From positions 186,001 through 250,000 of the forward strand of contig NZ_CAIJCS010000019.1 in NCBI RefSeq assembly GCF_903819165.1: a DNA stretch of 64,000 bases, given 5' to 3'. This DNA comes from Aedoeadaptatus nemausensis. Lineage in GTDB: Bacteria; Bacillota; Clostridia; Tissierellales; Peptoniphilaceae. Below, piece by piece: positions 2,202-62,604 of this stretch. Both the position numbers and the translations under genes were made by a program. The notes under the pieces are model-generated. The model searched no databases. It was given only the letters and a program-made list of their open reading frames with translations, and was not told the origin of the DNA. Each line of letters starts with the position of its first letter. Positions within the stretch are counted from its first letter, which is position 1.

Positions 2202-5200
2202 TTAGCGATTTTGATCGGCCAGACGCACCAATTGATCTAATGTGTTGGCCAGTTCCGCTCTGGAGAATTCTTTCTTTCCGTCAATTTTTCCATTGTCGTT
2301 TGCAGAGATCAGACCCAGTTCCGCCATGCGGATCACAGAATCACGACTCCAACCGCCGACATTGGATAAGTCTTCCGGATTGACAGATTTCACTTTCTCA
2401 AATTGAATTCCGTATTCCGTTAAAAGACGATCGAGAAGAGATGCAAATTCTTCATAAGTGAGTTTTTGATTGGGCTTAAAGCTTCCGTCGGGGTAACCTG
2501 CTACCAAGCCGTTGTTGCTCGCCCATTGAACGGGATCGGCAAACCAGTTCTTGGAGCTTACGTCCATAAAGTTTACGGGAGAACCGAGGGTCTTGTCCTT
2601 AGAAACAGTTCTGAAGACTTGGGTTACCATGGCTCTCGTAATGGTGGTGTTGGGTTCGAACTTGCCGTTGCCCATGCCCTTTAACACACCGCGGCTTACC
2701 ATATTGCGCATTGCGTCGCCTTCGACACCTGCGGGGATATCCGTAAGGTTCACGGGGAAATCCGCCTTGGGTACGTAAATGCTGTTGCGTACCTTTGCCT
2801 CGGGTTTTGTTTCCGAAGCTTTCGCTTTAGGAGCTTCAGCTTTATTCATAGGCGTTAAGGTGATATAACCTTTCGACTCGGGAGCGGAAGGCTTCACTTC
2901 CGGTTTCGTTTCGGGTTTTGTTTCGGGTTTAGTTTCGGGCTTCGTTTCCGGTTTGGTTTCTTCTTTTAAAACTAACTTGGAAATGGCTTTTTTAATATTG
3001 TCGATGTGACCTTCCACATAATAAGGAATGGTTTCAGCTTTTTTCAGCTCGTCCTTTCCGCCGGCAATGGCCGTTTTTAAATCTGTCGTGGATTCAGGTT
3101 TATATTTTCCGCTATTAATAAGCTCTTCAGCTTCAGCCATGAGCTTTCTTAAATCATCTCTCAAGTGACGCTTGTCATTATAGCTGACTTCAAAAATATT
3201 TTTCCGTTCGGTATTGTCTTTGGTGCTTAAAATCTCGTATCGATCCTCGAAGACTCTGACATGAATGAGCTCTGGTTCAAATTCCCATTCAAATTGCCCG
3301 TTCTTCGAAACGGTCATAGCGTAGATTCTGCCATCCTCAACGCCCTCTAATTCGAAATGAACATCGCCATTAACATCGGATGTAACGTTGCGATAAGAGC
3401 TTAAATTGGGGTTAATCTGATTGGCGGTAATTTCTACGCCCTTTGCCGGTTTCCCGGTCTTTTTGTCGATGGTCTTGAAATTGACGGATATAGCCTTTTC
3501 CCCTTGCGAACGCTTATCTTCCGCCGTCACAATCATACCGTCCACATAATCGGAAGCTTTATGAGAACCTACAGACCTAATCTTTCCATCTTCATCGGTC
3601 AGAATATCAAACTGATCCGGGTTGAAGCGATATTCTTTCGATCCGAAGATAACCTCATATTTCGCATTCTTATCTAAATTCTTCAACGTAATCATACCGT
3701 TGCTGTCAGTTTTCGGTTGATCAACAATAGAAGGAATGCCATAGCTATCCCATTTATTCAATCTAATTTTAATGCCTTCTTTCGGCTGGCCCTTGTAGAG
3801 CACTTTAATTTTAAGTTCCGAAAGAGCTTTAGATGTTTCCGGTTCCGACGGCGTCGTATGGGTGCGGTCTTTTAATTTTAAAGCCATACCATTATCAGCT
3901 GAAACGGCTTCGTCTTTAGTTTTTAAAAAGTGAACACCTACGTTCCCTTTGTCTTCTACAATTTTTGCAAAAGGTGTTACGAGTTCCAAGTTCTCATTGT
4001 TTTTAATGCGAAGGGTATAGGTCTTTCCTACTTCATATTTTCTAAGAAGACCCATAGAGTTTTCAAGCGTAATAGTATCAAGTACTTTATCGCCATCTAA
4101 GACTTCGATATCAACCGGAGAATTTAAAATATCATTCTCTTTTGAAACCATAAATAGCAAAGGATTTTGAGGTGCTTCCGGCTCAGTCACTTTATCTTTT
4201 ACTTTGATAAAAATATTATCGCCCGTTAATTCTTCATCCTCTTTTTGTAAGAAATGAACGCCTGGGTTTCCTCCGACTTCCACAACTTTTGCGATCGGAG
4301 TAACGAGTTCGTATTCGTCACTTCCCTTGATGCGTAGCTTATAGGTCTTCCCGACTTCATAATCGTTGAGTGAACCTACGCCGCTTTCAAATGAAACTGT
4401 ATCAACAACTCGGTCTCCATCTAATAACTCTATTTCGAATGTCGGTAGAATAGGCTCCTCACCTTTGACGACCATAATTTGTAACGGTTCTTTTGCTTCT
4501 TCTTTTGGGACAACTTTGATATTAATCACTACGAATTTTTTAGAACTGTCGGAAAAAGTAATCTTTACCTGCTGTTGCGTGGTCCCTTCCTTGGACATAT
4601 CGGCATTTTTCAATCCATTTTGAATTTCAACCGTTGCGTCACTTGGCAAATTTTTAATCGCAGGCTTTAATAAATCTGCTGTTAGCTCCGTTCCAACCTC
4701 AAGCTCAATCGTTTGAAGTTGCGGAACAAATTTATCAGATTCAGTTTTGATAACTTGATCATTTTTTCCATTAACATTATTTACGTGGTCAACAGGTGAA
4801 AAATCTTCAATTGCGTTATTGTTCAGAAAAACCGTTCCTAAATCCTTCATGTTTTTTAGAATCGAAATATCCGAAATATCATGTCCTGTCGCGTGAAATT
4901 CTTTTAACTTCGTCAGGTTCTTCAGCGGTTCAATCGAGGTGATCTTCTCGGGAACAAACCCATTCATATAATTAGCCGCTTTATTATTGATATTGAGCAC
5001 TTCCAGATTCACTAACTTGCTAAAATATTTAGCGCTATCGGGCTTAAAATTATTTTTATCTAAGTTTAAATACTTAAGATCGGTCAGATCGCTCAAAGGT
5101 GAAAAATCTGAAATCTCGCAGGAATCGGCATCTAAAAAGTAAAGCTTCTTATAATTTTTAAGTGCGTCGATATTCTTTACTTTCACCATGCGAATATGGA

Positions 5201-5702
5201 GTTCTTCCACATTGACCAGTTTATCTAAAAAACTGAAATCTTGTACTTTTTCGTTGCCGGTAATATTGATGTAGCGAATCTTTGTTAAATTTGCTAATGG
5301 TGAAAGATCTTCTATCGGCTGATAGGGCAATGAAACATATTGGAGATTTTCCGCATACTCCATTCCCTTGATTGATTTACATTTATGAAAATCTTCTCCG
5401 GGATTGTGCGGCAAACATTTTTCCGGACTTAAAGTGACGACGTGTTTCAGCATCTCCTTCGTCACCGGTAGATTGGCTTCACGCTTATAGGACGCGTTGA
5501 TCGCTTCTTGAAGCACGGGATCTTCAATTACATTATCTCCGGAAAAAAGCGTGTCGCTATTGTTCTTAATATACTCTTCGTCAATGTCCAGTATATTGGG
5601 GATCTCCATTTGCCAAGCGTTGTTATCGCCTTGGGCAAATGCGTAGGGTACATTGGCAAATAGCATAGTAAATGCCAATAACATTGCTAATAATTTCTTC
5701 AT
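2202..5702 (-). CDS. Secreted LRR surface protein with three C-terminal S-layer homology domains
   Basis: 1166 residues. A signal peptide (Lys-Lys, hydrophobic core, AFA-Q cleavage near residue 23) leads to an internalin-like leucine-rich repeat region at roughly 105-310. Then come two tandem ~100-residue modules sharing DGDRVVDT/DGDKVLDT, YEVGKTY, LRIK and GVHFL, and two prealbumin/Cna-B-like beta modules. A helical stretch is followed by a KPET repeat spacer near residue 925. Three SLH domains at about 985-1160 (with FPVNL, NFMDV and NGLVAGYPDGSFKP) would anchor the protein to cell-wall polymer. The start has AGGAGGAGAG directly upstream. Likely a cell-surface adhesin or S-layer-associated protein; ligand unknown. 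The modular repeats suggest recombination-driven growth. Confidence 0.88.
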   Translation of the reverse strand: MKKLLAMLLAFTMLFANVPYAFAQGDNNAWQMEIPNILDIDEEYIKNNSDTLFSGDNVIEDPVLQEAINASYKREANLPVTKEMLKHVVTLSPEKCLPHNPGEDFHKCKSIKGMEYAENLQYVSLPYQPIEDLSPLANLTKIRYINITGNEKVQDFSFLDKLVNVEELHIRMVKVKNIDALKNYKKLYFLDADSCEISDFSPLSDLTDLKYLNLDKNNFKPDSAKYFSKLVNLEVLNINNKAANYMNGFVPEKITSIEPLKNLTKLKEFHATGHDISDISILKNMKDLGTVFLNNNAIEDFSPVDHVNNVNGKNDQVIKTESDKFVPQLQTIELEVGTELTADLLKPAIKNLPSDATVEIQNGLKNADMSKEGTTQQQVKITFSDSSKKFVVINIKVVPKEEAKEPLQIMVVKGEEPILPTFEIELLDGDRVVDTVSFESGVGSLNDYEVGKTYKLRIKGSDEYELVTPIAKVVEVGGNPGVHFLQKEDEELTGDNIFIKVKDKVTEPEAPQNPLLFMVSKENDILNSPVDIEVLDGDKVLDTITLENSMGLLRKYEVGKTYTLRIKNNENLELVTPFAKIVEDKGNVGVHFLKTKDEAVSADNGMALKLKDRTHTTPSEPETSKALSELKIKVLYKGQPKEGIKIRLNKWDSYGIPSIVDQPKTDSNGMITLKNLDKNAKYEVIFGSKEYRFNPDQFDILTDEDGKIRSVGSHKASDYVDGMIVTAEDKRSQGEKAISVNFKTIDKKTGKPAKGVEITANQINPNLSSYRNVTSDVNGDVHFELEGVEDGRIYAMTVSKNGQFEWEFEPELIHVRVFEDRYEILSTKDNTERKNIFEVSYNDKRHLRDDLRKLMAEAEELINSGKYKPESTTDLKTAIAGGKDELKKAETIPYYVEGHIDNIKKAISKLVLKEETKPETKPETKPETKPETKPEVKPSAPESKGYITLTPMNKAEAPKAKASETKPEAKVRNSIYVPKADFPVNLTDIPAGVEGDAMRNMVSRGVLKGMGNGKFEPNTTITRAMVTQVFRTVSKDKTLGSPVNFMDVSSKNWFADPVQWASNNGLVAGYPDGSFKPNQKLTYEEFASLLDRLLTEYGIQFEKVKSVNPEDLSNVGGWSRDSVIRMAELGLISANDNGKIDGKKEFSRAELANTLDQLVRLADQNR

Positions 5703-54085: not shown

Positions 54086-55627
54086 TTATCTGTTTTCAAG
54101 TAATCTTAAGCGTTCTTCCAGTGCGTGGACTCGGCGTTCCAGTGCGCGGTAACGTGCATCGGCAGATCCTCCGTTCACGGCGCCGTAAACAGCGTTGTCG
54201 TTTACTTCGGGAGCGTCGTTTTCTCGCCTTTCAGCCTCTTCCGCTTCTTCTGCATAGCGAACTAAATAATCCACGGTATCGTCCTTTTTCTGAGCGGCGC
54301 GGCGTTTAAATTCTTCCGCTTTATTTTTAGCATCTTGTGCCGTAGCTTCGGCGCTATCTTTCAGTTCATAGGCTTTGTCTTCGGCCCGGTCGCGCCACTC
54401 GTAAGCTTTCGTCTCCGCATCGTCCATTGCATCCGATGCGCGATCGCGCCATTCGTAGGCCTTCGCTTCGGCACTATCCATGGCGGATTGAGCATTGTCT
54501 TTAAAGCGGTCCGATTCCCGAGATGCCTTCGCCTTGTATTCCGCGCTCTTGCGCTTGGCTTCGTCTTGGAAATCATCAATGGAGCGCTTGGCTTCTTGTT
54601 TCATACGATGGCGATAATCTTCCCGCGCTTTCTTCCGAGCCTCTTCCTGCTCCTTATGGCGCTTTTCGCGAAGGGCGTCCACATCGCCTTTTTTTCCGTC
54701 GTTCTTCAAGCCTTCTCGTTTGACGGCAATATCCACGATCTTTTGAATGAGCTCGTCGTAGTTCTTACCCTCTTCTTTTGCTGCGGCCGCCAAGGGGCCG
54801 TCGGGATGGAAGTCCGGGGCACTGTCTACGCCGTAAACATAAACCTTTTTATCATTGACGCGCATGGCGATAATACCGTAATCCCGCAGTTGCAGGAGAT
54901 CGAACACCTTCGCCGCAACGGCTTTCGCCTCGTTTACAGGGGTATCTTTAAGATCTGCAGGTGCGGCATAAATGCCCTCTCCTCTTTCGGGAGCTTCCAC
55001 AAGGGCAAGGGGCGGCAATACTTCTTTTTCGTCTCCGTTACCGAGAACGGCTACTAAGACGTCCTGCCCCTCTAAAGATTCCATAACGAGGAGCTCTTCC
55101 CCTTTTGCAAAGCGGGGAGTCGCTTCTTCAAACAGCTCTTCCCCGCTTACAACGAGGCTGCCCTCTTCTCGGGAGTCGAGCAGGTCGGAAGAGTTATTCA
55201 TCACAACAGACGGATACTCGACGGAAAGGCCGGAGAGGGCCACGGGATTTTCCGCCACGCCCATCTTGGGATGGGGAATATCGTTTCTTGTAAGGATCGC
55301 CGTTAAAAGACTCACATCCGATGCGATACCCATGCCCATGGCATTACTTCCGGCGTAGGCAATGTCCAGAGAATTAAGCAAACTCGGAAGTTCCCCGTCG
55401 TCGTTCGGATCTAAGTTTCCCTTGGCCAAATTTAGGACCAAATCAATTTTATCTTCCTTCAATTTGTCCCCGAGATGCTCATCGAAAATATAATCGATGA
55501 CGTCATATTCGCTCAGTGCCTCTTCCATGGCCCGAGCCACTTTCTCCTGTTCCTTTTCTTTCTGTTTTAAAAGATCTTCCGATAAACTGTCGATTCTGTA
55601 GTTATCCTTAATGATGCCGATTCGCAT
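54086..55627 (-). CDS. Degenerate ATP-grasp (D-Ala ligase-like) domain fused to a long helical repeat
   Basis: 513 residues. Positions about 1-300 resemble D-alanine-D-alanine ligase: VLNLAKGNLDPNDDG, IAYAGSNAMGMGIASDVSLLT and NDIPHPKMGV follow the order of that family. But the lysine-containing VKP strand reads VVMNNSS and the metal-binding Asn-Pro-Asn region reads VDSAPDFHPDG, so catalysis is doubtful. Residues about 320-455 are charged amphipathic helix with 11-13-residue repeats (two exact copies of AYEWRDRA), like LEA or apolipoprotein helices. The C-terminal YRALERRVHALEERLRLLE is a short coiled coil. No signal peptide. It lies 56 bases after carB with no terminator between. Function unknown; perhaps membrane-surface or stress related. 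Confidence 0.7.
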   Translation of the reverse strand: MRIGIIKDNYRIDSLSEDLLKQKEKEQEKVARAMEEALSEYDVIDYIFDEHLGDKLKEDKIDLVLNLAKGNLDPNDDGELPSLLNSLDIAYAGSNAMGMGIASDVSLLTAILTRNDIPHPKMGVAENPVALSGLSVEYPSVVMNNSSDLLDSREEGSLVVSGEELFEEATPRFAKGEELLVMESLEGQDVLVAVLGNGDEKEVLPPLALVEAPERGEGIYAAPADLKDTPVNEAKAVAAKVFDLLQLRDYGIIAMRVNDKKVYVYGVDSAPDFHPDGPLAAAAKEEGKNYDELIQKIVDIAVKREGLKNDGKKGDVDALREKRHKEQEEARKKAREDYRHRMKQEAKRSIDDFQDEAKRKSAEYKAKASRESDRFKDNAQSAMDSAEAKAYEWRDRASDAMDDAETKAYEWRDRAEDKAYELKDSAEATAQDAKNKAEEFKRRAAQKKDDTVDYLVRYAEEAEEAERRENDAPEVNDNAVYGAVNGGSADARYRALERRVHALEERLRLLENR

Positions 55628-55683: not shown

Positions 55684-58600
55684 TCACATCTCTTCGGAAT
55701 AGGAGTCCAGTTCGTAAATTTTCACACTGTCTTCCAGAGGATTATTTTGAAGCGTCTCAACATACACTTTCGCCTTGTCTAAATTAGTGAAAAGTTCCAC
55801 ATCACACTCGATGGCATTTCGGCGAATGAGGAATCCGTCCCGCTTGGAGTCGTTGCCCTTTGTCGGCGTGTTGAATACCATGTCGATCTCCCCTTCTTGA
55901 ATCAGGTCGATCATCGTAGGCGATTCTTCGCCAATACGGCGCACTTCTTCGGCGGCAATGCCGTTTTCTTCCAAAAACGCCTTGGTTCCCTTTGTGGCAA
56001 GGAAGTGAACGCCGACGGATTCTAAGTTTTTCGCAATGGGAAGGAATTCATCTTTGTCCCGATCGCGAATGGTGCAGAGCACGTTACGGGAACGCTTGGA
56101 AATGTCTGTTCCGGCGGCCATAAAGCCCTTGGCCATGGCTTCTTCTTCTGTTGCGCCGACTCCTAAAACTTCCCCTGTAGAGCGCATTTCCGGCCCGAGG
56201 GAGGCTTCTACTCTGTGGAGTTTTTCCGTGGAGAACACGGGAATCTTGACGCAGGTCAGTTTGCTGCGCTCACCGATACCTGTGGAGTATCCCATGGATT
56301 TCAAGGTGTTACCGAGCATAACTTTCGTGGCAAGCTCCGTAATATTGGTTCCCGTAACTTTCGAGAGATAGGGGACAGTTCTCGAGCTTCTCGGATTCAC
56401 CTCGATCATATAAAGTGTTTCATCTTTTATGATGTATTGAATATTGATCATGCCGATGACATCGAGAGCGAGAGCCACTTTTTTCGTGGCATCCAGGATT
56501 TCCTCTTCCATTTTTTGGCTGATGTTGCGACTGGGGTAGATGCTGATAGAGTCGCCGCTGTGGACGCCGGCCCGCTCCAAGTGTTCCATCACACCGGGAA
56601 GATAGACGTCGGTGCCGTCGGAGATAGCGTCAACTTCACATTCCATTCCCTCGATGTATTGGTCAATCAGCACCGTGCGATCCGGTTCCATTTCAAAGGA
56701 TTCTTCCAGATAGTAGCGAAGATCTTCATCATTCATGCAGATTTCCATACCTTGGCCGCCGAGAACGTAAGAGGGACGCACGAGGACAGGATAGCCGATG
56801 GATTTTGCGCCTTCCATTCCCTCTTCCACACCGTGAACGCCGATGCCTTTCGGGCGGCGTAGATGTAATTCTTCCAGCATAGCATCGAATTTTTCCCGAT
56901 CTTCCGCCCGGTCGATGGCGGTGGGATCGGTACCTAAAATGGGCACGCCCTTTTCCTTAAAGACGCCGGCGAGTTTGATAGCCGTTTGGCCGCCGAATTG
57001 AAGGATGACGCCGTCGGGATTTTCTTTTTCAATAATGTTCAGGGTATCTTCCGCCGTCAAGGGCTCGAAGTATAATTTATCGGAAATGTCGAAGTCTGTG
57101 GACACGGTTTCGGGATTGTTGTTGATGATAATGGTTTCGTAGCCTTCTTTTCGGAGAGTCTTGACGCAGTGGACCGAGGCGTAGTCGAATTCAACCCCTT
57201 GCCCGATACGAATCGGGCCGCTGCCGATAACGATGATCCGTTTTTTATCTTTCGTTACAGGGGATTCGTCGTCCCCTTCGTAGACCGAATAGAGGTAATT
57301 GACTTGAGCATTGGCAAGACCCCCTTGTGTATCCACCTTGCGGTAGCGAGCGTGGATACCGAAGAGTTTGCGAAGTTCTCTTACGAAGTTTTCGCTTACA
57401 TTCAGGCGGGAGGCGATAATTTCGTCGCTGAAGCCCATTTGTTTCATTTCACGAAGCTTGTCTTCGTTTAAGTCTTCCTTCTTCATGGATTCAAGTTCCG
57501 CCTCTACATCGACAATGTGTTTGATAATGCGGAGGAAGTAGGCGTCCATTCCCGTTTCTCTGGAGAGGCGGGCGATGTCGTAGCCCGTGTTAAAAAGTGC
57601 TGCCAAATAGAACAGGCGCTCGTCGTTAGGGCGTTTGACATTTTCTTTAAGCGTGGCGATATCCATATTTCTGAAACGGGGATGGAGCAAGCTGAAAGCG
57701 CCGATTTCGAGGGAACGCAGACCCTTTAAAAGAGCCACTTCGAAGGTAGAGCCGATGGCCATGACTTCTCCCGTCGCCATCATCTTTGTGCCTAGATTTC
57801 TATCGGCGTTAAAGAATTTATCGAAGGGCCATTTCGGAAGCTTCACGACCACATAGTCGATGGAAGGTTCAAAGGCCATGGAGGAGTTACCTGTCACTTT
57901 GTTTTCGATTTCATCGAGTCCCATCCCCAATGCGATTTTTGCTGCAACCCGGGCGATGGGATAGCCCGTAGCTTTAGAAGCGAGAGCCGAGGAGCGGCTT
58001 ACCCGGGGATTGATTTCGATAACGGCATATTGCAAACTGTTGGGCTCCACGGCGAACTGCACATTGCAGCCCCCTTCGATCCCCACTTCTTCAATAATTC
58101 TGAATGCGGAGTTTCTGAGCATGCCGTGCTCGATATCCGTCAGGGTTTGTGTGGGCGCCACGACAATGGAATCTCCGGTGTGGACGCCGACGGGGTCGAT
58201 GTTTTCCATATTGCAGACGCAAATGCAGGTGCCCTTGGAGTCGCGAATCACTTCGTATTCAATTTCTTTCCAGCCCGTAATACATTTTTCAATCAAGACC
58301 TGACCGACTCGAGAAAGGTGAATGCCTGCGTGAGCAATGGTGTGCAGTTCTTCTTCCGTTTCGCAAATGCCGCCGCCGGTTCCCCCGAGGGTAAAAGCAG
58401 GGCGCACGACGACAGGGTATCCGATGTGTTTAGCGTAGGCGACGGCATCTTCCACCGTCTCCACGGTTTTCGATTCGATAACGGGCTCGCCGATTTTTTC
58501 CATCAATTGGCGGAACTCTTCTCTGTCTTCTCCTCGCTTAATGGAAGGGATGGAAGTACCGATGATTTCCACACCGTATTTTTCCAAGACGCCGGAATCG

Positions 58601-58908
58601 TAGAGTTCGATGGAAAGATTCAAACCGGTTTGGCCGCCCATGCCGGCGATCAGGGCATCGGGCCGTTCTTCGGCGATAATTTTTTCAATAACCTCTGCAT
58701 TTAAAGGTTCGATATAGACTTTATCCGCCACTTCTCTGTCGGTCATAATCGTGGCGGGATTGGAGTTTACGAGAACGACCTCTATCCCTTCTTCTCTCAG
58801 GGATTCGCAGGCTTGGGTACCGGAGTAGTCAAACTCGGCGGCCTGTCCGATGACAATGGGACCGCTACCGATAACGAGTACTTTATGAATATCTTTTCCG
58901 TTAAGCAT
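55684..58908 (-). CDS. carB: Carbamoyl-phosphate synthase large subunit
   Basis: 1074 residues, full length. Two homologous halves each start with [17 protein letters not shown] or [17 protein letters not shown]. The ATP-grasp loops [13 protein letters not shown] and [13 protein letters not shown] and both NPRxSRSSAL/[10 protein letters not shown] metal sites are intact. The C-terminal ~150 residues are the allosteric domain ([20 protein letters not shown]). It makes carbamoyl phosphate from bicarbonate, ATP and ammonia for pyrimidines and arginine. Eight bases after carA. All synthetase motifs look functional although the partner CarA has lost its glutaminase site. Confidence 0.96.
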
Positions 58909-58916
58909 AATTCCTC

Positions 58917-59957
58917 CTAAGCCAGCTCTTTTAATTGTTTCAATTGTTCGTCGAGTAAATCCGTCGCCCCCGGAAGACCGAAGGGATCGAATAAGACGCC
59001 GTAGGCTTTTTGTTCTTTGTCCCAGAAACCTTCCACGCTGCCGTCTCCTAAATGAGTGTAGGTAATGTCTACAGATTCCGGAAGGGTTTCGATATAAAAT
59101 TCATGGTTTTGGCTCGTCATGTAGATGCGCTCGTCGTCACCTTTTACGGGAATCGATGCGCCGGCGTGGGGTTTATCCAATTTTTGCAAGGTGCCGCCGA
59201 GAGCGAGGCCTAAAAATTCCGCGCCGAGGCCGATGCCGTAAATGGGCAGTTTTCCGATCATCTGCCCGACATCGTGAACGATGTCTAAATAGTGGGCGGC
59301 AAAGCCCGGTCCGGAGCTTAGGAATAAAACGTCGGGTTTATCTTCCAAAATATCTTCGTAATTGGTCATGGCCGGGTAGACAATAATGCGGTAGCCTTCT
59401 TCGCTGAGTTTTTCCAAAATGCCGTCTTTTACGCCGAAGTCCCAAAGGGCGACTGTCTTCCCTTCCCCTTCAATTTCCGTCACCTCGATGGTAGACACGG
59501 CCTCGATGGTATTGGGATTTTGTTCGTCGAAAAATTCTTCCATTTCAGAGGGCGTCAAAAGGCGCTCGGTAATGACCGCCCTTTGGGCGCCGTTTTCATT
59601 TAAGTGGCGCACGAGACCGCGAGTATCTACTTCCTCGATTCCCGGAATATCGTAGTAGTCTAAGTATTCTTTTAAATTCATTTCGCTTCTGAAATTCGTC
59701 GCATCATCCATGGCGCGGCGGCAGATAAAAGCGGAAATGGTGGGGCCGTCGGCTTGATTGTCCTCAAAGTTCATGCCGTATCCGCCTATAAGGGGATAGG
59801 TAAAGATCAGAATACGCCCTAAATTACTGGGGTCGGTCATCACTTCTTCGTGGCCGATCATGGCGGAGTAGACCATAAGCTTTCCGCCTACCGATTCCTT
59901 ACTTCCGCTGAATTGCTTGCCTTTAAAGACCGCTCCGTCTTCTAATTGGATATACAT
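58917..59957 (-). CDS. carA: Carbamoyl-phosphate synthase small subunit, glutaminase site lost
   Basis: 346 residues, the usual length. The N-terminal CarA domain is well kept ([30 protein letters not shown]), and the class I amidotransferase fold is recognisable ([22 protein letters not shown]). At the nucleophile, however, where the family has GICLGHQ, this protein has GIGLGAE: residue 243 is Gly (GGC codon 59229-59231) and the following His and Gln are Ala and Glu. At the C-terminus the catalytic His-Pro-Glu is Asp-Pro-Phe (residues 324-326). Without Cys, His and Glu it cannot hydrolyse glutamine; it may remain as a structural partner of CarB. AAAGGAG precedes the ATG. Confidence 0.93.
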
Positions 59958-59968
59958 TTGCCGCTCCT

Positions 59969-60865
59969 TTAAATGATTCCGCGAATGGCATCGAGAGATT
60001 CGATACCTTCTTCTTTCATATACGCTTCAAGTTCGCCGATAAGCCGGGCCATGATACCGGGCTCGATCAAGTTCATCGTCCCGATTTCCACGGCCTGTGC
60101 CCCTGCCATGATCATGGCGAGCACATCTTCTGCCGAGGCAATGCCGCCGATCCCGATAACGGGAATCTTCACCGCCCGGGCCGCTTCCCGCACCATTCTA
60201 AGGGCGATGGGGAAAATGGCAGGCCCTGACAGACCGGCATAGACATTGTCAAACATAGGCTTTTTATTTTTTACATCAATGGTCAGGGCTTGAAAAGTGT
60301 TGACGAGGCTCACGCCGTCTGCCCCCGCCTCTTCGCACGCCCGGGCGAGATCGGCCACATTATCCCCGTTGGGCGAAAGCTTGACGATCACCGGATGGTG
60401 AGTTTTCTTCTTCACCTCTTTTGTAATGGCAGCTGCATCTTGGCAGTGAAGGCCGAAGGCCATGCCGCCGCTTTTCACATTGGGGCAGGAAATATTGAGT
60501 TCGATCATGTCGATATCCGCTTCGTCTAATTTTTCTGTTGCGATTAAATAATCGTCTAAACTATGACCGCCTAAATTCGCCATAATCACCGTGTCCCGTT
60601 CCCGCATCATAGGCAAAATGTCCTCGATAAACGCATCCACCCCGGGGTTTTCCAAACCGATGGAGTTCATAATCCCTGAAGGCGTCTCCACAATGCGAAT
60701 ACCCGTATTGCCCGGACGGGGATTCAGGGTAAGTCCCTTCGTTGAAATGACGCCTGTAAGAGCCGGATCGTAAAAGGGGGCGTACTCTTCGCCGAAACCG
60801 AAGGTTCCCGATGCACCGATCAGAGGATTTTTAAGCGTCTTGCCGCATAGTGTGGTCGTGAGCAT
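59969..60865 (-). CDS. pyrD: Dihydroorotate dehydrogenase B, catalytic subunit
   Basis: 298 residues, FMN barrel. GASGTFGFGEEY near the start, NISCPNVKSGGMAFG near 125 (catalytic Cys), KLSPNGDNVADLA near 163 and GIGGIASAEDVL near 235 match class 1B PyrD. It oxidises dihydroorotate to orotate and passes electrons to NAD+ through PyrK. The ATG at 60865 has GGGAGAT upstream and lies inside the pyrK end. Confidence 0.95.
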   Translation of the reverse strand: MLTTTLCGKTLKNPLIGASGTFGFGEEYAPFYDPALTGVISTKGLTLNPRPGNTGIRIVETPSGIMNSIGLENPGVDAFIEDILPMMRERDTVIMANLGGHSLDDYLIATEKLDEADIDMIELNISCPNVKSGGMAFGLHCQDAAAITKEVKKKTHHPVIVKLSPNGDNVADLARACEEAGADGVSLVNTFQALTIDVKNKKPMFDNVYAGLSGPAIFPIALRMVREAARAVKIPVIGIGGIASAEDVLAMIMAGAQAVEIGTMNLIEPGIMARLIGELEAYMKEEGIESLDAIRGII

Positions 60866-61535
60866 ACACTGATCTCCCTTCAAATATAGGTCCGTCTTTA
60901 CAAATACGTTTTCGCTCGCCTCCCGCTTCGCAGGTACAGGCGAGGCAGGCGCCGAATCCGCAACCCATTCGGGATTCTAAAGACACATACACTTCGCCCT
61001 TCGCCCACTCGACGGCCCCTTCCATCATGGGGCGCGGCCCGCAGGTAAAGATTACTTCATCTTCTATGATTAGATCGTCGAAAATATTGTTTCCGATGTA
61101 AAACGTAACCCGATCATCGTAAGGGGCGTAGAGTTCTTCAAGTTTTAAATTTCGCTCCCTCAGGCCAATAGCTACTTTCAGTTTTTTCTCGTGATCTTGC
61201 TCCAATAATTGGAGGGAGGGGGCAATCCCCGTGCCGCCTCCGATATAAAGGGTGTTCTCTCGAATTTGGGGGAAGCCGTTTCCGAAAGGCCCTTCCACTT
61301 TTATATCATCTCCCGGAAGGAGCTTTTTTAAAGAATCCGTACCGCCGCCCACGATCTTAATCAAGAAAGAGAGAACCCCCTCTTTTAGTGAAAACACGGA
61401 AATGGGGCGACCCAATAATTTCGAATGATCTTTCGGTCTCAGCATAAAAAACTGGCCGGGCTTCGCTTCTCCGTCATAGGCGAAGCGCAGCACGTAAAGG
61501 CCGTCGCCTAAATCATTATTTTCCAGCAGTTTCAT
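60831..61535 (-). CDS. pyrK: Dihydroorotate dehydrogenase B, electron-transfer subunit
   Basis: 234 residues. FAD-binding GRPISVFS near 40, NAD-binding GGGTGIAPSLQLLEQ near 105, and the 2Fe-2S cluster cysteines in CGFGACLACTCEAGG with a later CKDGPIFEG. It links PyrD to NAD+. It overlaps pyrB by 20 bases at its start and pyrD by 35 at its end. Confidence 0.95.
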   Translation of the reverse strand: MKLLENNDLGDGLYVLRFAYDGEAKPGQFFMLRPKDHSKLLGRPISVFSLKEGVLSFLIKIVGGGTDSLKKLLPGDDIKVEGPFGNGFPQIRENTLYIGGGTGIAPSLQLLEQDHEKKLKVAIGLRERNLKLEELYAPYDDRVTFYIGNNIFDDLIIEDEVIFTCGPRPMMEGAVEWAKGEVYVSLESRMGCGFGACLACTCEAGGERKRICKDGPIFEGRSVYAHDHTMRQDA

Positions 61536-62439
61536 TTTTTGCCTCCAGTAGGGTGAGAATCAGAGCCATGCGCATATACATTCCGTTGCGCGCCTGTTCA
61601 AAATAAAGAGCTCTCGGATCGTCATCGATACTTGCGTCGATTTCATCCACTCTCGGAAGGGGATGGAGCACGATTAAATCCTCCGAGGCACTTTCCATAA
61701 CCTCGGGATTCAGGAAGTAGCTTCCCTTATAGCGCTCCGCCTCTTGATCGCTTGAGAAGCGTTCTCTTTGCACTCGGGTCATGTAGAGCACATCGAGATC
61801 GCCGATCTCCGCCTTTAAATCGTCCACTTCTTTATAAGGGCATTTGGCGTGATCTAAATAAATCGTCGGCATCTCCAGCCCTTCCGGCGCAATAAAGACA
61901 AATTCATTGTCGTAATCGTTTAAGAAGTCGTAGAGGGAATGCACCGCCCGGCCGTAACGTAAATCGCCGCAAAAGCCAACCTTTAGGCCAGACCACTTGC
62001 CCTTTTGATCGCGTATGGTAAAGATATCCGCCAGAGTTTGTGTGGGGTGAGCATGATCACCGTCCCCTGCGTTAATAAGGGGCATATTTTTAAGAACGCC
62101 TACGGTCTCCGATTGAGTGTAGGGCACGGGATGGCGCATAGCACAAATATCGGCATATTGATCCACAATATGGAGCGTGTCCCTTACAGTTTCGCCCTTC
62201 GCCATAGACGATACCTTCACATCGCCTAAATGAAGCACCTGCCCGCCTAAGCGGTACATGGCAGCATCGAAGGACATACGGGTCCTGGTCGAGGGCTCAA
62301 AAAAAAGACTGGCTAAAATCTTTCCATCACACGCATGGGCATAGGACGATGGATTTTTTGCAATATCTGCTGCCAGTCTGAATAAATCATCATACTCTCT
62401 TTCGTTGAAGTCACTCGGTTCTATAAAATGTCTGAGCAT
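61516..62439 (-). CDS. pyrB: Aspartate carbamoyltransferase catalytic subunit
   Basis: 307 residues. Carbamoyl-phosphate site STRTRMSFDAAMYRLGG near 53, the SMAKGETVRDT loop near 80, HPTQTLADIF near 133 and LHPLPRVDEI near 265 identify PyrB. It condenses carbamoyl phosphate with aspartate. The ATG at 62439 is chosen for AGGAGG six bases upstream; longer frames run back through the attenuator. No pyrI partner is seen. First gene of pyrB-K-D-carA-carB. Confidence 0.95.
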   Translation of the reverse strand: MLRHFIEPSDFNEREYDDLFRLAADIAKNPSSYAHACDGKILASLFFEPSTRTRMSFDAAMYRLGGQVLHLGDVKVSSMAKGETVRDTLHIVDQYADICAMRHPVPYTQSETVGVLKNMPLINAGDGDHAHPTQTLADIFTIRDQKGKWSGLKVGFCGDLRYGRAVHSLYDFLNDYDNEFVFIAPEGLEMPTIYLDHAKCPYKEVDDLKAEIGDLDVLYMTRVQRERFSSDQEAERYKGSYFLNPEVMESASEDLIVLHPLPRVDEIDASIDDDPRALYFEQARNGMYMRMALILTLLEAKNETAGK

Positions 62440-62451
62440 ACGGCCTCCTAT

Positions 62452-62575: not shown

Positions 62576-62604
62576 AGTTTACGCTTAATCCCTTCGTTCG
62601 TCAA
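62576..62604 (-). promoter_or_regulatory. Promoter of the pyr operon
   Basis: Minus strand TTGACG (62599-62604), 17-base spacer, TAAACT (62576-62581), starting just ahead of the PyrR-like hairpin. Confidence 0.65.

Follow-up and report, generated by a model that had tools for sequence, protein, structure and literature searches.

Loss of the glutaminase triad from the carbamoyl-phosphate synthase small subunit of Aedoeadaptatus nemausensis and its probable recurrence across Clostridia

In the pyrimidine gene cluster of Aedoeadaptatus nemausensis, the small subunit of carbamoyl-phosphate synthase (CPS), CarA, carries none of the three residues of the glutaminase triad, and the large subunit, CarB, is intact. 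We consider it very probable that this CarAB pair supplies the pyrimidine pathway with carbamoyl phosphate, using bicarbonate, ATP and free ammonia as substrates. The window that we analyzed is a 64,000-nt stretch of contig NZ_CAIJCS010000019.1, and its features are listed in Table 1. A comparison with other genomes makes it probable, with somewhat less assurance, that many Clostridia have abandoned glutamine for carbamoyl phosphate, the CarA glutaminase having died repeatedly (Cys, then His and Glu), carA having been lost in several lineages to leave a single-subunit, ammonia-fed CarB in pyr and even arg clusters, and CarB having changed in step at a probable CarA-contact patch.

Table 1. Genes of the cluster and altered glutaminase positions of CarA (window coordinates; residue numbers of replaced residues are those of E. 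coli CarA)
Feature	Coordinates	Strand	Remarks
pyrB (aspartate carbamoyltransferase)	61516..62442	-	sole transcarbamylase match in genome; listed ORF starts at TTG at 62604
pyrK (dihydroorotate dehydrogenase electron transfer subunit)	60831..61535	-	best NCBIfam match at 188.2 bits (cut-off 219); Pfam DHODB_Fe-S_bind above cut-off
pyrD (dihydroorotate dehydrogenase)	59969..60865	-	listed ORF starts at TTG at 60883
carA (CPS small subunit with dead glutaminase site)	58917..59957	-	346 aa; PF00988, PF00117 and NF009475 over cut-off
SSGPGFA replacing the SNGPGDP loop	59298..59318	-	alignment; coordinates derived from residue numbers
Gly243 (codon GGC) at the column of nucleophile Cys269	59229..59231	-	alignment
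Ala246-Glu247 replacing His272-Gln273	59217..59222	-	alignment
Asp324-Pro325-Phe326 replacing His353-Pro354-Glu355	58980..58988	-	alignment
carB (large subunit)	55684..58908	-	1074 aa; begins 8 bases downstream of carA; no change at catalytic or gate residues

The cluster is transcribed in the order pyrB-pyrK-pyrD-carA-carB, with gaps of 11 bases on the pyrD side and 8 bases on the carB side of carA, and a Shine-Dalgarno-like sequence precedes both carA and carB. The original prediction had described carA as full length and in an operon, and this description holds: the protein has both domains, carB adjoins the gene, and the clean frame has a single stop, the terminal one. Specifically, the CPSase_sm_chain domain (PF00988, 124.2 bits) is followed by a class I amidotransferase domain (PF00117, 71.4 bits), both above cut-off, and the NF009475 model scores 286.9 bits against a cut-off of 221. 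TIGR01368, the model for the glutamine-hydrolysing CPS small subunit, falls below its cut-off (267.9 against 307.35 bits), but the triad cannot be judged by this cut-off, which was passed by all 80 mid-scoring class genomes although 13 of the 70 CarAs read there lack the Cys. An AlphaFold model of CarA built from a 7-row alignment (mean pLDDT 54.3, with residues 1–159 under 50) had E. coli CarA as its best fold match, over the amidotransferase part. In CarB, CPSase_L_D2 matches two stretches, the two synthetase halves, and an MGS-like domain is present. CarA (346 aa) and CarB (1074 aa) are encoded by two ORFs, and so the pair is not CPS1 proper, which is one chain. The genome is 99.47% complete, and the closest named genome found was that of Aedoeadaptatus coxii, whose CarA is 92% identical. 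The gene that follows carB (54086–55627, minus strand) encodes a 513-aa protein in which an ATP-grasp part, with a weak match to the D-Ala ligase C-terminal domain, is fused to a long charged tail of repeated AYEWRDRA-type units. Elsewhere in the window (2202–5702, minus strand), an 1166-aa protein weakly matches a NEAT/leucine-rich-repeat protein model, far under cut-off.

An active class I glutamine amidotransferase has Cys-His-Glu at its triad; in the window CarA the corresponding E. coli residues, Cys269-His353-Glu355, align to Gly-Asp-Phe, and the nucleophile Cys is absent as in ammonia-type CPS. The complete loss that had been predicted is thereby confirmed, on a gene that we place on the minus strand, a detail missing from the earlier claim, and the alignment likewise bears out the proposed change of the SNGPGDP loop. 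The only Cys of CarA, by eye, is residue 79 in the N-terminal domain, and so the amidotransferase domain holds no replacement Cys, although the QN of the SQNH motif and much of the domain are retained. All eight genus genomes examined (G000–G007) have Gly-Asp-Phe at the three triad columns, which rules out a sequencing error. Six named isolates, whose CarAs are 66–92% identical, match the same genus, with Gly243, Asp324 and Phe326 invariant.

The same loss extends through the family. Against 130 family genomes the window protein gave matches in 32, near full-length CarAs in 18 and partial-query matches in the other 14. In an alignment of the 18, made without six additional rows that were named duplicates (L032–L037), the Cys column is Gly throughout, the His column is D in 11, Q in 4 and H, Y and K in one each, and the Glu column is F in 9, E in 4, L in 2 and K, C and V in one each. 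Close relatives with an intact triad, which would have pointed away from the original prediction, were thus not found among these family CarAs, all 18 being Cys-less. The prediction had also read the changes as several coordinated losses, and here it needs amending: the losses are real, but their order is better read as stepwise. Because Gly is constant at the Cys column while the His and Glu columns vary, the alignment suggests that Cys was probably lost first and His and Glu later. CarB was over cut-off in 34 of the 130 genomes, namely the 18 CarA-bearing ones and another 16 in which CarA had no match (G108–G121, G018 and G021), and a working glutaminase subunit was found in none of these 34. 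At seven of the CarA-less family carB loci, the stretch examined held no relative of the window CarA, PyrB, PyrK or PyrD. Across the order, 55 of 249 genomes had a PF00988 match and yielded 61 CarAs, of which 21 are Cys-less (the 18 of the family plus those of G244, G145 and G146), 39 have Cys-His-Glu and one (G136) is too short to tell.

At the level of the class, PF00988 matched in 277 of the 393 Clostridia genomes sampled. We drew CarAs from 60 loci (30 best and 30 among the lowest scoring) and from 80 mid-scoring genomes, with 70 of their 85 matches in the sample and 15 outside it; three loci (L148, L164 and L177) were too short to read. Among the 127 readable CarAs 28 are Cys-less (0/29 top, 15/28 low and 13/70 mid scoring), counts that were picked by score and hence give no frequency. 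A second, Cys-bearing CarA occurs in three of the 28 Cys-less genomes (G287, G504 and G554); L231, L236 and L244 mark the two-CarA genomes G287, G554 and G504, respectively, each with one Cys-less and one Cys-bearing copy. In another genome (G310), the CarA at L146 has Cys and Glu with Gln at the His353 column, and this could be an early step or another route to glutaminase loss.

Mapping the Cys, His and Glu columns on a tree, a check proposed with the original prediction, places the loss family-wide and as recurrent across Clostridia on CarA and CarB trees alike. A quick CarA tree (n=109, active-site columns omitted) requires 15 trait changes, at least 8 of them forced by starred branches, and a quick CarB tree (n=76, Cys-less and CarA-less against intact) has 19, at least 15 of them forced by well-supported branches, where a change may be a gain or a loss, several rows have long branches, and quick-tree stars are less trustworthy with long rows. 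Three genera (g220, g158 and g103) contain both Cys-less and intact CarAs among the genomes read, a mixture that leaves little room for a reading without recurrence. On the CarA tree the window genus belongs to a clade of 10 CarAs, all Cys-less, that carries a star. Because three family members (G056, G058 and G067) fall elsewhere on that tree, there is probably more than one Cys-less lineage within the family; the placement of a further member, G060, is unsure. In this genome (loci L018 and L198), the branch of CarA is much longer than any other, and CarB is divergent too.

In other lineages the searches turned up no small subunit. CarB passed its cut-off in 33 of 80 PF00988-negative class genomes, drawn from about 96 inferred to be without a PF00988 match. 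A tblastn search with 16 varied CarAs found no CarA in 20 wider CarA-less loci (17 genomes) or in a set of 10 carB loci, and the same queries recovered CarA in all 40 control loci. By eye, 11 of the 20 loci are pyr-like, with carB followed by pyrK and pyrD; five are arg-like, in the order argD, carB, argF, with argC and argB close upstream in four; and in the other four carB stands apart from such clusters. Profile annotation confirmed one pyr-like and one arg-like cluster without carA, both in G308. An assembly gap is hard to blame for the absence of carA from an otherwise full cluster, and may be the cause where carB stands alone. The arg-like clusters without carA (L323, L324, L326, L328 and L329, in G511, G308, G373, G539 and G390) lie in genomes that each have a second carB match. 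Arginine synthesis in those five genomes may also run on ammonia.

The CarBs retain the catalytic residues for carbamoyl phosphate synthesis. At 19 positions that we take to be catalytic, the readable rows of 76 CarBs are unchanged (one truncated row lacks six of the positions), as are the 20 CarA-less CarBs; positions 210 and 754 vary, in intact enzymes too, and were excluded from this list. The ammonia gate, presumably Cys232-Ala251-Ala314 in E. coli numbering and read off the alignment, is retained in the window CarB, and its sole difference in the 20 CarA-less CarBs is Ala251Val, in four of them. The gate itself was defined on human residues, as described in PMC4655335.

At columns that are conserved with intact CarA, the 20 CarA-less CarBs depart at F536 in 19 and E552 in 17, and further at E260 and E535 (15 each) and at R265 and F348 (14 each). 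Of the 18 columns with at least two departures in Cys-less lineages, 10 overlap the CarA-less set of 24 (p 8e-8), and the reverse control at those thresholds overlaps at 6 of 43 (p 0.05). Across six threshold pairs the overlap p values were 8e-8, 6e-5, 1e-3, 1e-4, 0.16 and 0.10, the strictest carrying no signal, against 0.05, 0.74, 0.21, 0.52, 0.54 and 0.28 for the reverse control, and the overlap p values are too small because rows share ancestry. The window CarB itself has M346, R527, L535 and A536. A scan of 280 conserved CarB columns reached at most 6 of 21 lineages departing, at F536, and its reverse control reached 7. Matched tree pairs at 12 post-hoc sites gave median p values of 0.002 for Q262, 0.016 for D258 and 0.031 for Y261, and of 0.125 to 1 for the other nine, all of them weak because the sites were picked from some thousand columns. 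At individual CarB columns convergence is no more than suggested by these alignments, and the shared set of changing columns hints that CarB has become less tightly coupled to CarA. These columns probably lie at a predicted contact with CarA.

Despite the lost triad, carA is under selection. The original prediction had argued for selection rather than decay, and the dN/dS comparison that it called for agrees, with omega across seven genus genomes of 0.086 for CarA (purifying), 0.054 for CarB, 0.087 for PyrD, 0.117 for PyrK and 0.095 for PyrB. Values this far below 1 rule out a pseudogene. Within CarA, omega is 0.057 for the N-domain and 0.106 for the amidotransferase domain, and fixing it at 1 for the latter (kappa 2) costs 166 log-likelihood units. 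In seven intact CarAs of another genus, omega is 0.071 overall, and the two parts stand at 0.073 and 0.071. In the Cys-less CarA the amidotransferase domain is slightly relaxed and still strongly constrained, and a structural role alone would account only in part for a constraint so little below that of the rest.

The possibility that the CarAB pair is out of use, with pyrimidine salvage sufficing and carA decaying, has to be weighed against these values. The higher omega of the amidotransferase domain, relative both to the N-domain and to the two parts of the intact CarAs, speaks for such decay, but both CarA domains and CarB lie far below 1, none of the 18 family CarA matches has an internal stop, and the gaps of 8 and 11 bases keep carA tightly packed in its cluster. 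PyrB, moreover, is over cut-off in all 37 genomes tested (the 34 CarB-bearing family genomes plus G244, G145 and G146) and is the only transcarbamylase match in the window genome (G000). We therefore regard disuse as very unlikely. Other sources of carbamoyl phosphate fared no better as candidates. A second CarA serving pyrimidines, which would have undercut the original prediction, was not found in the genome search (one PF00988 match). Carbamate kinase was over cut-off in two of the 37 genomes (G021 and G088), and it was rejected as a source because a profile search gave no match in the eight genus genomes.

An enzyme that still depends on glutamine could also arise if another amidotransferase or glutaminase bound CarA-CarB and fed it glutamine-derived ammonia in trans. 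Glutamine is probably made and used in this organism: GuaA and PyrG (510 and 535 aa) retain Cys-His-Glu, so that only CarA is affected by the triad loss, and within a few kilobases on the same contig there is a match to glutamine synthetase. Together these rule out a general loss of glutamine use for the window genome. Glutamine synthetase (PF00120) matches 30 of the 37 genomes, G000 included, and leaves seven without a match; in G000 the match is partial and lies in a 711-aa frame, which we take to be as expected for the GlnN type. On contig C16 of this genome (16217–21167), guaA, pyrG and the glutamine synthetase match fall within about 5 kb on one strand. Feeding in trans is nonetheless highly improbable, as a search for class I amidotransferases (PF00117) gave three matches in the genome, CarA, GuaA and PyrG, the latter two with synthetase parts of their own, and no such partner stood out near the CarA-less carB genes, where profile annotation covered two loci.

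CarA might instead cut glutamine through different residues, or its former pocket might now catalyse another reaction or bind another ligand, and the retained QN of SQNH, much of the domain and the invariance of Gly243, Asp324 and Phe326 within the genus would fit such a pocket. The window CarA, however, has no Cys in its amidotransferase domain, and four columns that we take to be the glutamine contacts of CarA (Ser47, Lys202, Asn240 and Gln273) vary widely in 43 Cys-less CarAs and hardly at all in 66 intact ones, although the window CarA itself keeps Ser47 and Lys202. Other lineages retain CarB with no CarA found, and we give an altered but working pocket only a very slim chance.

Synthesis from free ammonia, as the original prediction had it, is the reading that the genomes support, since neither a second CarA in the genome nor a close relative with an intact triad was found; the use of ammonia itself is what we infer from this. 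The organism is presumably an ammonia-rich amino-acid fermenter. Ammonia would then be the actual nitrogen donor, provided by the surrounding medium or by metabolism inside the cell, and it would reach CarB from outside and not through the old glutaminase pocket. It would meet carboxyphosphate in the first half of CarB, and the carbamate would pass to the second half as usual. Such a route has precedents: PMC4655335 describes, for human CPS1, a proposed path on which external ammonia avoids the former glutaminase site, and reports that E. coli variants remained active with ammonia from outside when their tunnels were blocked or perforated; and the title of a paper cited in PMC6245113 has carbamoyl phosphate formed from NH3 in vivo by the large subunit of the E. 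coli enzyme. CarA may be kept as a non-catalytic partner for the folding, stability or allosteric control of CarB; of its two domains, the N-domain is the more strongly constrained.

CPS1, in humans a liver enzyme, is one long chain that requires N-acetylglutamate and serves the urea cycle. The human enzyme, which has Ser294 at the position of the nucleophile Cys and takes free ammonia as nitrogen donor (PMC4655335), was among the matches by sequence and by fold. Like the window CarA, the CPS1 of land vertebrates has retained its amidotransferase domain without the nucleophile Cys. The enzyme here differs from CPS1 in being divided between two bacterial subunits encoded in a pyrimidine cluster, in having lost the whole triad, and in having relatives for which no small subunit was found. 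E. coli CarAB (CPS II) has the same subunits, domain order and CarB catalytic residues at the positions checked, but the triad Cys269-His353-Glu355 is intact in its CarA, which supplies CarB from glutamine, and laboratory Cys269 mutants of E. coli (PDB 1c30, titled C269S) resemble the natural state in the window. An independent shift towards ammonia is described for CPS III of Alcolapia fish, in which, unlike in the window CarA, the triad is kept and a glutamine-binding residue has changed (PMC7657897). Single-domain NAD synthetase is likewise a bacterial amidating family with glutamine and ammonia forms (PMC3376133), in another pathway and with the ammonia form thought to be ancestral, whereas here the ammonia form looks derived from the glutamine form. 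The small CPS of Methanobrevibacter smithii performs CPS chemistry in one 41-kDa protein that forms a dimer (PMC6022934), whereas CarB here is full length with both halves. The same review assigns the bacterial enzyme to CPS II, which uses glutamine, and treats CPS I, which takes only ammonia, as mitochondrial, and a 2026 paper on Thermococcus (PMC13260591) has ammonia supplied to CPS either free or from glutamine. By title and start of abstract, the open-access literature gave no description of a bacterial CarA without the Cys or of a two-subunit ammonia-type CPS. Ammonia-only CPS is already known as CPS1, and the two-subunit bacterial form is apparently new, on evidence that is weak because most subscription journals lie outside the literature search.

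If this interpretation is true, the annotation of these enzymes as glutamine-hydrolysing, and the metabolic models built on it, would be wrong for these species. Ammonia-fed carbamoyl phosphate synthesis would be widespread in Clostridia, with many origins, and intact, Cys-less and subunit-less CPS would form a graded set of natural variants, in which the role of the small subunit besides glutamine cutting and the entry route of outside ammonia become testable.
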